From Muricauda sp. SCSIO 65647 (GTDB lineage Bacteria; Bacteroidota; Bacteroidia; Flavobacteriales; Flavobacteriaceae): a stretch of DNA of 64,000 nucleotides. This document shows positions 1 through 3,064 of this stretch, piece after piece. The notes beneath the pieces were generated by a model that worked only from the letters and a program-made list of their open reading frames with translations, did not search any database and was not told the DNA's origin. Location: the NCBI RefSeq assembly GCF_021534965.1, contig NZ_CP091037.1:3541501-3605500 (forward strand), in the 5' to 3' direction. A program made the translations under genes and the position numbers. Every line of letters begins with the position of its first letter. The first letter of the stretch is position 1.

Positions 1-37
1 CAAAAGCAGAGAAGGGGTTCGATTCCCTTAGGAAAAA
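1..37 (+). tRNA. possible 3' end of a tRNA (or att-site copy), cut by the window edge
   Basis: Bases 13-29 form a T-arm: a 5-bp stem AGGGG/CCCTT around the 7-nt loop TTCGATT. The seven bases that follow (AGGAAAA, 30-36) and one discriminator base could be the 3' acceptor strand. No CCA is encoded and the 5' half lies outside the window, so acceptor pairing cannot be tested. A short tRNA 3' end next to an AT-rich RT island would also fit an attachment-site duplicate left by an integrating element. Confidence 0.3.
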
Positions 38-229
38 CAACTACCTATTTATTAGGAGTCAACATACTTAAGTAACAATGTCTTATCATCACTCTTTTTA
101 CTCTTCTTACCTGGTGTCAGTATTCTTAAAAAATATGGCAGTAAAAAACTGACAAAGAGTCATTTAAAATTAATCTATCTAAGGAATTTTCCCCTTTTTC
201 AATTTGGGTATGGTTTATGTTCAATAAAA

Positions 230-501
230 AGCATTATGGCTGGGACAAGACCAGCAGATACGTTTTATGCTAAGTGCACATTTGTGTTCCACGCGCAGAA
301 TTTCGGCTGACGCGTGAAGTGTGATTCCAATTTCACAAATCTGCAACCATGTTCTTACAAGTTTCATGGCCAGTAGAATAGTGAAGGGAGTTACCTTAAG
401 TTCAACTTCTGTTATTGCTGTCATATTGCACGGTTCTATCAAAGTTACGAACTTCATTCTATCAAAGAGTGGCGTTGTGTATTGCGAAAGCAAGAAGCAA
501 C
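230..501 (+). ncRNA. candidate structured ncRNA leader upstream of the reverse transcriptase
   Basis: This gene-free stretch folds convincingly by eye. One hairpin is GCTGG/CCAGC (239-243/251-255). A long hairpin domain has an outer stem 275-286/334-345 with one mismatch, stacked on a GC-rich inner stem 287-298/307-318 with one or two bulges and loop AATTTCGG. A final hairpin has a GAAA tetraloop closed by TTGC/GCAA (482-485/490-493) inside GTTG/CAAC (474-477/498-501). An 11-nt direct repeat, TTCTATCAAAG, occurs at 434-444 and 457-467, 23 nt apart. Known DRT2 and DRT9 systems carry an ncRNA template in exactly this place. That this RNA is the template is inference; its ends are not known. Confidence 0.45.
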
Positions 502-556
502 ATCAGGATTGTATCTGCCAATTAAGGTAAGCCACGACCAGCCATATTTTTTTACT

Positions 557-2275
557 ATGGTTGAAGATTGGTTGAAATTTAAAAAATATCCCCACATTGG
601 ACGTCCCTTAACAAAAAGGAGGGACAGTGGTTGGATAATTAATTATGTTACCAATCCAGACAAAATCACCAATCATAAATTTGTACCTCTCCTTCACAGA
701 ACATTAAATCAACGCAAGTATAGACCTGCTAAAAATGCTTTAAAAAACGAATATGGCAAGAGGCAGCGGACGGTAGGTGAAAAAAAGCAACGTCACATAT
801 TTTTTTCATCTCATTTGGATTCCATTATTTATAGTTACTACAGTCATTTGCTTACCATTGCCTATGAAGATTACTTAAAAGACAAACCTTACTCTTCTGT
901 TGCTGTCGCATACCGAAAAATCCCTATTAAAAATGGAAAAAGTGGAAATAAGTCCAACATAGAATTTGCATTCGAAGCTCTAAATTTTATTGAAGAAAAT
1001 AAACACCGAAAGCTTTCTATAATCGTGGCGGATGTCACTTCCTTTTTTGACAATTTAGACCATCGCTTATTACACGCTCAATGGAAGCGAGTTTTAAGAG
1101 TCAATAATATGCCGGAAGATCATTATGCAGTTTATAAAAATTTGATTGCAAAGAATTATGTCAATGAAAACGAACTTTTTAATCGTTTCCAGCACAAACT
1201 AATGATAGAACGATTTAAGCCACATGATACTTCACAAACAGAACTAAAAAGAAAAAAGGTCAGCAAAATCTACAACATGCGGCACGAAAAAGTGGTTGCA
1301 TTCTGCACTACTGAAGAATTTTTTGATGAAGCCACTGATCTTATTCGCTATGACAAGCCTCTAAGTTCTAGAAGTAGGAGTGAACTCGGAAAAACTAAAC
1401 TCAAAGGTATTCCACAAGGTACTCCAATAAGTGCTACTTTGGCTAACATCTACATGTTAGATTTTGACGAAAAGGTTAATAACGCCGTAATTGACTCTTC
1501 AAAAAAAGCTTACTACCAAAGGTACAGTGATGATCTTATCATAATTTGTAATCGAGAGGATGAAGAATACTTTTACAGTTTGATACAAAATGAAATTGAA
1601 GTTAAAGCGAAGCTCGACATTCAACGTAAAAAGACCAACATATACCATTATGAGTTAAATGAGACTGGCGAATTTATGGGCGGGATAGTTGAAAACGGAA
1701 AATTGAACCAAAACAAGCAATTGGAATATTTGGGTTTCAGCTATGATGGAGAAAAAGTCAGGGTTAAAACCGCTGGTTTTTCTAAATTTTATCGCACAAT
1801 GAAAAGGTCTTTTAGACGTGGTGCTCATTTTGCCAAAAAAGCCCATATTCCATCAAATTCATTATTTGAAACACGTTTGTATAAAAGATTTACCCATGTC
1901 GGTTCAAAACGTCGTCTAAAGTGGATGCCTGATCCCGGTAGTCCTACAGGATATAGCCGTTCTGTACATTATGACTGGGGTAATTTCATCAGTTATTTAA
2001 GTAAAGCAAACGAAGTAATGAAAGAAATCAATGGAGATGATACAATTAAAAGGCAATTCCGCAAAGTATGGTCGAAATTCCATGAGGTAAAGGAAAATAC
2101 TTATCAAGAATTGGGTAAAGTCAAGGTTTCGAAAAAGCAGGACAGAAGAAAATGCCAACCTACACTGCCTATGGCAGTTTCGGCAGGTAAACGGGCCGGT
2201 TGGGGAGTGAACCTGCCTGCCGCTGGCAGGTTTGTGGTTAACACGGCAGCACCATTGCCCTGGGCTTTGTGTTAG
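557..2275 (+). CDS. reverse transcriptase of the unknown-group/defence-associated type (DRT2/DRT9-like)
   Basis: Encodes an RNA-directed DNA polymerase of about 572 residues from the ATG at 557, chosen because the conserved block (WLKFKKYPHIGRPL) starts right after it; the frame is open upstream to 482. Palm motifs are intact: the first catalytic Asp in VADVTSFFDNLDH (about residue 159), GIPQGTPIS (about 284-292), and YSDD (about 323-326). The N-terminal pattern YVTNP..(I/V)..HKF and the block HLDSIIYSYY..YE..L....AYRK...SNIEFA match my memory of defence RTs of the UG2/UG28 groups, not group II introns (no maturase or HNH) nor DGRs. The last 45 or so residues are encoded by the palindromic 3' RNA region and look like read-through. 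The gene is clearly AT-richer than the rest of the window, suggesting transfer. RT is near certain; the defence subgroup is an inference. Confidence 0.85.
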   Translation: MVEDWLKFKKYPHIGRPLTKRRDSGWIINYVTNPDKITNHKFVPLLHRTLNQRKYRPAKNALKNEYGKRQRTVGEKKQRHIFFSSHLDSIIYSYYSHLLTIAYEDYLKDKPYSSVAVAYRKIPIKNGKSGNKSNIEFAFEALNFIEENKHRKLSIIVADVTSFFDNLDHRLLHAQWKRVLRVNNMPEDHYAVYKNLIAKNYVNENELFNRFQHKLMIERFKPHDTSQTELKRKKVSKIYNMRHEKVVAFCTTEEFFDEATDLIRYDKPLSSRSRSELGKTKLKGIPQGTPISATLANIYMLDFDEKVNNAVIDSSKKAYYQRYSDDLIIICNREDEEYFYSLIQNEIEVKAKLDIQRKKTNIYHYELNETGEFMGGIVENGKLNQNKQLEYLGFSYDGEKVRVKTAGFSKFYRTMKRSFRRGAHFAKKAHIPSNSLFETRLYKRFTHVGSKRRLKWMPDPGSPTGYSRSVHYDWGNFISYLSKANEVMKEINGDDTIKRQFRKVWSKFHEVKENTYQELGKVKVSKKQDRRKCQPTLPMAVSAGKRAGWGVNLPAAGRFVVNTAAPLPWALC

Positions 2276-2410
2276 GGCGTGAAACGCTCAAATAGCGAAG
2301 CTATTAAGACACAAAGGCACGAGAAATAGTAATTAGCCGGTGGCTGATTACTATTTTCGGTGAGATGGAGCGGAGGAGAAGCATGGCCATACACCAGCTG
2401 GCCCCTCACT
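2130..2410 (+). ncRNA. candidate structured RNA overlapping and following the RT 3' end
   Basis: A dense run of stems begins inside the last RT codons. It includes CTGCC/GGCAG, CCTGCC/GGCAGG, then a TTTGTGT/ACACAAA closing pair around two short GAA-loop hairpins (GCGT/ACGC and AATAGC/GCTATT). A 15-bp hairpin follows at 2324-2338/2342-2356 with loop GGT and one G-T pair. Next is GTGAG/CTCAC (2360-2364/2405-2409) enclosing GGCCA/TGGCC (2385-2389/2399-2403). Base use is GC-richer than the RT gene. The run ends at an intrinsic terminator, so RT and RNA are likely on one transcript. No group II domain V is seen. I do not recognise the RNA family. Confidence 0.45.
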
Positions 2411-2411
2411 A

Positions 2412-2435
2412 AAAAGGTCTACCAGACCTTTTATT
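2412..2435 (+). terminator. intrinsic terminator of the RT transcript
   Basis: A 9-bp stem AAAAGGTCT/AGACCTTTT (2412-2420/2424-2432) with loop ACC runs into TTTTATT. This is a typical rho-independent terminator and closes the RT plus 3' RNA unit. Confidence 0.75.
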
Positions 2436-2640
2436 AACGTTCGGCCCTCTTCTTGATTTTAATGGGAGGGAGGCTCTTTTTACGCAGTATAGGCGAAGTT
2501 TTTGTTAATAATTTTCGAAGCCTTGGAGAAAATTTAGAAAACTGAGACGGTTTTAGCTGCGCTAAAAATACCTCGTAAAAAGGGTCTTTTCTTTTGGTTC
2601 GTTTTCTTTGGACAAGCAAAGAAAATGAACAACCTTAACC
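2436..2640. repeat. AT-rich gene-free sequence resembling a dispersed flavobacterial intergenic element
   Basis: No credible gene. The reverse strand reads open for 61 codons, very rich in Lys and Arg, which I reject as a protein. It contains a 9-bp hairpin TTTTCTTTG/CAAAGAAAA (2602-2610/2617-2625) within a stretch resembling a sequence I recall as recurring between genes in Flavobacteriaceae. Copy number in this genome cannot be checked here. Confidence 0.3.
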
Positions 2641-2894
2641 ATTAAACTTAAAAGAAAAAACAACACGTAGGTTTCAATCCTATTTGACATAATATTTATA
2701 GGATTCGAAATATAAAGCTTCTATCAGGAGAGTATGTGAGCAAGTGCTTAGAAATTTGCTCGCTTTTCCAACGTACTATTAGAAATACTACCATAAGGTT
2801 TTGCGACAAGCGGACGAGAAGTTGCTAATAATTTTTTTCAGCTCGATGATTTTATTTGATAACTAGGTTGTGATAGTTGTAGGATGTACATAAT
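2641..2894. other. gene-free stretch with isolated hairpins
   Basis: No gene seen. Two hairpins stand out: TTTC-AATCCTAT pairing with ATAGGATT-c-GAAA (2672-2683/2698-2710), and GAGCAA/TTGCTC (2738-2743/2756-2761) followed by GCTTTT. Otherwise AT-rich. Confidence 0.35.
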
Positions 2895-2992
2895 TCCAAA
2901 TTCCCTTGTCATAATCATGAACGTTATACTGCCAAGGCACTATAACTTGATTATGTCAAATAGCGATAAAACCGCTATTACAGGAATTTGGA
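2895..2992 (+). ncRNA. predicted three-way-junction RNA of unknown class
   Basis: A 10-bp closing stem TCCAAATTCC/GGAATTTGGA (2895-2904/2983-2992) encloses two arms. Arm one is CATAATCA/TGATTATG (2910-2917/2948-2955) topped by GTTATA-c-TGCC-AA-GGCA-c-TATAAC (2923-2946). Arm two is AATAGCG/CGCTATT (2959-2965/2973-2979). Nearly every base is paired. The strand is not known, since inverted repeats fold on both. It could be a small RNA, an RNA thermosensor-like leader or a MITE-like inverted-repeat element. No gene lies within it. Confidence 0.4.
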
Positions 2993-3064
2993 GAATTGCT
3001 CCATAATTTATATTATGTAAAATAGATAATTAAGGGGTTAGTGAATGCCGACTGAAAATGGCCC

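Follow-up and report, generated by a model that had tools for sequence, protein, structure and literature searches.

The DRT2 (UG2) antiviral reverse transcriptases (RTs) are encoded with a neo ncRNA (PMC12039810, PMC11100668). The DRT2 system of K. pneumoniae consists of one upstream ncRNA and the RT, and the mechanism as published requires a stop-free frame opposite the ncRNA (PMC12039810). Among mobile systems, the closest described were the attP(+) of CTXphi and IMEX at dif, in which a folded strand with XerC/XerD-like arms lies next to a 28-bp dif with the cargo beside it (PMC4246890), the pdif (Xer) modules of Acinetobacter plasmids, which are single cargo units bounded by 28-bp Xer-type sites in alternating orientation (PMC7399989), and the integron cassettes, which are compact gene units arranged in arrays with 3' ends near a stop codon and adjoining folded DNA (attC). 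In addition, ssDNA phages and proviruses of Bacteroidetes are thought to integrate via XerCD and dif-like sites flank the proviruses (PMC3091885, PMC9719478).

The window analysed here, the whole stretch of 64,000 nucleotides from Muricauda sp. SCSIO 65647, was compared with these systems. Like the described DRT2 systems, its DRT2 locus has an RT of this family, an ncRNA upstream of the RT and, on the strand complementary to the ncRNA region, a frame without stops; the additional codons at the C-terminus and the folded region at the 3' end occurred in no DRT2 seen here. The folded strand, the XerC/XerD-like arms adjoining a 28-bp dif and the cargo beside dif were shared with CTXphi and IMEX; however, no phage genes were recognised, the cargo consisted of defence systems, any recombination is putative and the Xer-like arms were in modules D and E instead of module A (Table 1). 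Like the pdif modules, the locus showed single cargo units with Xer-type sites, but these were chromosomal, at the sole dif site, and their boundaries were folded elements. Compact gene units with 3' ends near a stop codon, adjoining folded DNA and an array arrangement were shared with integron cassettes, whereas no integron integrase was among the genes seen, no RYYYAAC/GTTRRRY core was visible by eye in module A and, in another genome, the same cassette was not followed by the folded element. Overall, it is probable that the folded sequence at the 3' end of the RT gene is the boundary between an inserted DRT2 cassette (ncRNA and RT) and the chromosomal dif.

Table 1. Coordinates of the features at the DRT2-dif locus, given as window positions except for the accessory island.
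Feature	Position	Strand	Remarks
DRT2 upstream ncRNA region	195..556	+	homology to other DRT2 loci begins at 195
DRT2 RT proper	557..2118	+	PADLOC and NCBIfam Drt2 matches; homology to relatives
Read-through ORF tail	2119..2275	+	no DRT2 homology, not conserved as protein, enters module A
Module A, cloverleaf-like folded element	2145..2317	+	left boundary GAAGAAAATGC at 2145
Module B, 15-bp hairpin	2324..2372	+	covarying; five other genomes also have it left of dif
Module C, dispersed palindrome with terminator-like hairpin	2392..2450	+	dozens of copies in the family
Module T, dispersed repeat	2564..2632	+	90-96% identical across many genera
Module D, conserved dif-left element	2674..2763	+	inverted XerD-arm-like sequence 2680-2695
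Module E, hairpin element, ~20 nt to the left of dif	2887..2990	+	second XerD-like arm 2951-2961
Chromosomal dif, 28 bp	2996..3023	+	XerC arm 2996-3006, centre 3007-3012, XerD arm 3013-3023
Accessory island left of dif	L090 7315-18526 (genome 3533315-3544526)		contains DRT2 and other accessory genes

The ORF at 482-2275 was identified as a DRT2 antiviral RT by a PADLOC Drt2 match (E 1e-135), and the NCBIfam Drt2 model matched the window RT with an E value of 1e-94 and 318 bits, under its strict cutoff of 390. The RT most likely starts at the ATG at 557 (MVEDWLKF...), the same start as in relatives. Opposite the ncRNA, a stop-free minus-strand frame at 221-493 was conserved in relatives (e.g. 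TPLIDRIKFVSLLTP...) and is a likely neo template of Flavobacteriia. The DRT2 layout of an upstream ncRNA with a stop-free complementary frame was found at the window locus. A simple ACA search for the template (ACA-bounded, divisible by three in length, no stops in the repeat) produced a single 90-nt candidate in the window, whereas the relatives yielded no candidate. To the left of the DRT2 unit, window 1-30 resembled a tRNA 3' end; no tRNA gene was called there by ARAGORN.

A total of 16 DRT2 relatives, 13 from 397 family genomes and 3 named loci, were compared with the window RT and matched it up to residues 534-552 and not beyond. The first-pass annotation had asked whether the protein normally ends near residue 525-530; the homologues do lack the tail. 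The closest relative terminated in ...YQELGIEK-stop, and the DNA homology with the relatives ceased at 2110-2118 with one alignment straggling to 2154. The folded 3' element was absent from all 16 relatives, so it is not a DRT2 feature; the last 150 nt of their DRT2 genes showed no folding beyond chance, and their 3' flanks were mostly unstructured and unrelated to one another. Since the relatives end at 534-552 and have no folded region at the 3' end, the last ~48 codons of the window ORF are, by homology, read-through and not RT, and they probably have no role in the RT. The frame through module A was not conserved in the other copies of this module. The odd RT tail is explained by the folded region, as had been proposed.

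The region 2130-2435 folded at -118.6 kcal/mol compared to a shuffle mean of -92.9 (z -5.04), and none of 100 shuffles folded as well. The G+C was 0.51 in this region and 0.55 in the tail codons compared to 0.35 in the RT body, and together these values confirmed the earlier description of a strongly folded, GC-richer region at the 3' end of the RT. In a second comparison, the fold signal was carried by 2276-2435 (z -4.5) and by the region taken together (z -4.9), whereas the final 150 nt of the ORF on their own were not better than shuffles (z -0.4). Hence, of the claim that the end codons of the RT are folded, it holds that the ORF enters the region and stops at 2275, but these codons by themselves do not fold beyond chance. 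The 15-bp hairpin was located at 2324-2338/2342-2356 and the two GAA-loop hairpins at 2275-2289 and 2291-2305, all in the region where they had been reported, and both GAA-loop hairpins were enclosed by CTTTGTGT (2265-2272) and ACACAAAG (2309-2316). The hairpin at 2412-2420/2424-2432, which had been read as an intrinsic terminator, was present, but its T run was short, it was not listed by the terminator scan and it is a member of a dispersed palindrome family. Part of the fold consists of ordinary dispersed palindromes because modules B and C lie in the region and C is genome-wide. A search of the region in Rfam gave no family match at the gathering threshold, in line with the statement that it is not an intron domain V; a group II intron end was rejected on the lack of a domain V match at this threshold.

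The fold of module A showed a stem TTTGTG/CACAAA around three hairpins, two of which are the GAA-loop hairpins. The 3' partner arm GCATATTTTCTTC was present in other copies and missing from the window copy. Only eight copies are known, all in one family: the window copy, copies in six other Flavobacteriaceae genomes and one partial second copy in this genome. Comparison of the seven full copies from seven genomes showed that 8 of 31 pairs had changed on both sides, which was above all 500 shuffles and well above the slid controls. Hairpin covariation may also come from DNA-level processes. The stems of the region had been proposed for a covariation analysis; they do covary, though as an element independent of the RT, and a tail conserved as protein without covarying stems, the opposite outcome, was found in neither of its halves. 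In 7/7 other copies, module A started 8-90 nt past the stop codon of a same-strand gene. The genes before it included a CBASS operon, a kinase with a TPR protein which matched a PADLOC candidate, an HNH-STAND protein and a QatC-containing operon, while two copies were preceded by a gene without an evident defence role. In the window, module A starts about 18 nt past the expected DRT2 stop, and the junction is thus of the usual type except that the stop is missing. A dif site was found 0.35-1.6 kb downstream of A in the same orientation in five of the six other genomes and 6.4 kb downstream, beyond a CBASS cassette, in the sixth.

For module B, 4 of 14 pairs had changed on both sides in seven sequences, which was beyond shuffles and slid controls. 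The stems of module C also covaried, and some of its copies adjoined tRNA genes. A GIY-YIG or tRNA-associated source of C was rejected; no GIY-YIG motif was found at 28 loci and a tRNA was present at 7 of the 28, so C is described merely as a dispersed palindrome. Module T was 100% identical over 71 bp in G380. A check for an IMEX-type Xer site showed XerD-like arms in E and D and none visible in A, which has no clear Xer binding site. Module E resembles an Xer attachment site in its folded form, and another two copies of it were found ~5.8 kb upstream. The E-like hairpins at L090 12618-13048, directly after a TacAT pair and ~5.5-5.9 kb upstream of dif, are tandem and partly degraded. RNAalifold on a MAFFT alignment of E found one helix because the stem positions shift, and no covariation score is claimed for E; the single-sequence folds showed a common shape. 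Overall, many genera have B, D and E to the left of dif, always in one orientation, and noncoding sequence was up to 84% identical between genera. In L138, L144 and L151, another conserved sequence type unlike E (ACCCAAGTTC...TTTTACATAATACTA) was observed directly left of dif.

The 22-bp core of dif occurred just once in this genome, and of the 36 relatives with a match 30 likewise had exactly one copy, while the reversed pattern used as a control produced four chance hits in all. The GC skew was +0.048 over 38 kb left of dif and -0.087 in the first 5-kb bin on the right, with a varying sign beyond ~10 kb right of the site. The site showed the 28-bp length, the 11-6-11 arrangement, the single copy, the intergenic position and the nearby GC-skew change that characterise dif.

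The edges of the gene units left of dif were compared between genomes. A CBASS operon was 83% identical over 3.4 kb between G368 and G380 with homology ending 22-24 nt past the stop, and module A followed it in one of the two genomes, the G380 copy being without A. Similarly, a TacA-GNAT toxin-antitoxin pair was 88% identical between this genome and G004 with homology ending exactly at the stop codon, after which came E-like repeats in this genome and a D-like sequence, E and dif in G004. As these two defence cassettes lose homology within 25 nt of the stop, defence-gene cassettes appear to land in the left flank of flavobacterial dif, and judging from these alignments they evidently change independently of the flank. 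A sister genome was without ~11 kb of accessory genes yet kept the right-hand dif neighbours, and its distance from the left-hand marker gene to dif was 2.2 kb compared to 13 kb here. The island in this genome contained an HTH gene, a FokI-like/QatC (restriction-like) operon, the TacA-GNAT pair, a 685-aa protein without a Pfam match and DRT2. Same-species strains with and without a cassette at one point were not seen and no recombination event was observed. No homologues were found in viral contigs and no copies of the folded region in phage and plasmid records. A description of defence cassettes at dif in Bacteroidetes was not found in the open-licence literature.

At 37 of 41 loci, the neighbours left of dif read toward it. 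The noncoding flank had a median of 532 nt on the left compared to 73 nt on the right. A PADLOC search of the dif-left neighbours gave a match at 8/8 module-bearing loci tested and 3/10 others, counts which serve as leads and not as an unbiased enrichment test because many loci were found through the modules and the module-bearing proteins were picked after their ORF starts had been seen. The dif-right neighbours gave just two cross-matches, via a MotB/OmpA domain. Defence genes reading toward dif were observed on the left in L187, L185, L092, L095, L099, L100, L103, L098 and L101; these included a CBASS cyclase, pAgo, NsnA/GmrSD-like, Ppl, DpnII restriction-modification, ThiF/E1-E2, PsyrA/DprA and the kinase-TPR candidate system. 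In addition, the array left of dif in G380 contained a 737-aa frame (L185 2213-4426) with an integrase-type Arm-DNA-binding domain and a C-5 cytosine DNA methylase.

The proposed explanation is that in Flavobacteriaceae the noncoding sequence to the left of dif, on its XerC side, would be built of the folded modules A, B, D and E, and that short gene cassettes, largely defence systems, would enter this flank reading toward dif and ending at the stop codon or a few tens of bases past it. The DRT2 cassette would have been inserted into the folded flank and joined to it immediately upstream of the DRT2 stop codon, with the result that the frame would continue for ~48 codons into A. Of the origins offered by the first-pass annotation, the end of a mobile element captured by the ORF came closest and is supported in this more specific form. 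Modules A and E may work as single-stranded folded DNA at insertion, and by analogy with the folded attP of CTXphi, which the hairpin of E with its XerD-like arms recalls, and with the dif-like sites around ssDNA proviruses of Bacteroidetes, XerC/XerD may act on them and insert the cassettes. The further idea that the host XerC/XerD operate the left flank as an integron-like capture site, with cassettes entering as single strands, is quite unlikely on present evidence. If it were true, the folded ends A, D and E would act like attC or CTXphi attP, and arrays of antiviral systems would build up at the replication terminus.

Several other readings of the folded region were weighed. It begins within the ORF and folds strongly, as would a second RNA component or stability element of DRT2 itself, which had been suggested; this is extremely improbable given its absence in the 16 relatives, whose last 150 nt did not fold beyond chance, the occurrence of the same element behind unrelated genes and the single upstream ncRNA of the K. 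pneumoniae system (PMC12039810). The modules could instead be merely dispersed intergenic palindromes (REP/MITE-like elements and terminators) beside dif without a cassette or Xer link, and C and T, which occur genome-wide in many genera with some copies near tRNA genes, fit this description. However, A, B, D and E are tied to dif in one orientation and A starts at a constant position with respect to stop codons, which makes this reading decidedly improbable.

A role of A as a 3' untranslated RNA element common to the cassettes, either a terminator or a protector of the mRNA end, would account for its covariation, its constant position behind a sense-strand stop codon and the T-rich sequence after several copies. 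It is nonetheless unlikely, as the same CBASS operon is without A in G380, D comes after the TacAT pair in one genome where E copies come after the same pair in another, and no housekeeping gene was clearly seen using A. Finally, the A-E flank may be a decayed noncoding remnant of a dif-integrated ssDNA phage or satellite. The Bacteroidetes ssDNA phages and proviruses with dif-like sites (PMC3091885, PMC9719478), the inverted Xer-like arms of E which recall CTXphi attP (PMC4246890) and the between-genera identity of the noncoding sequence argue for such an origin, but beside the modules in the loci examined nothing was recognised as a phage gene for replication or for a capsid, and we regard it as somewhat unlikely.

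With the DRT2 cassette boundary as the preferred reading, the second RNA for DRT2 is removed as a false lead. In Flavobacteriaceae, antiviral cassettes with folded boundaries appear to land at the chromosome-dimer-resolution site. If this is true, reading the genes left of dif would be a simple route to new defence systems, and there would be a testable link among Xer recombination, ssDNA phages and integron-like cassette capture.
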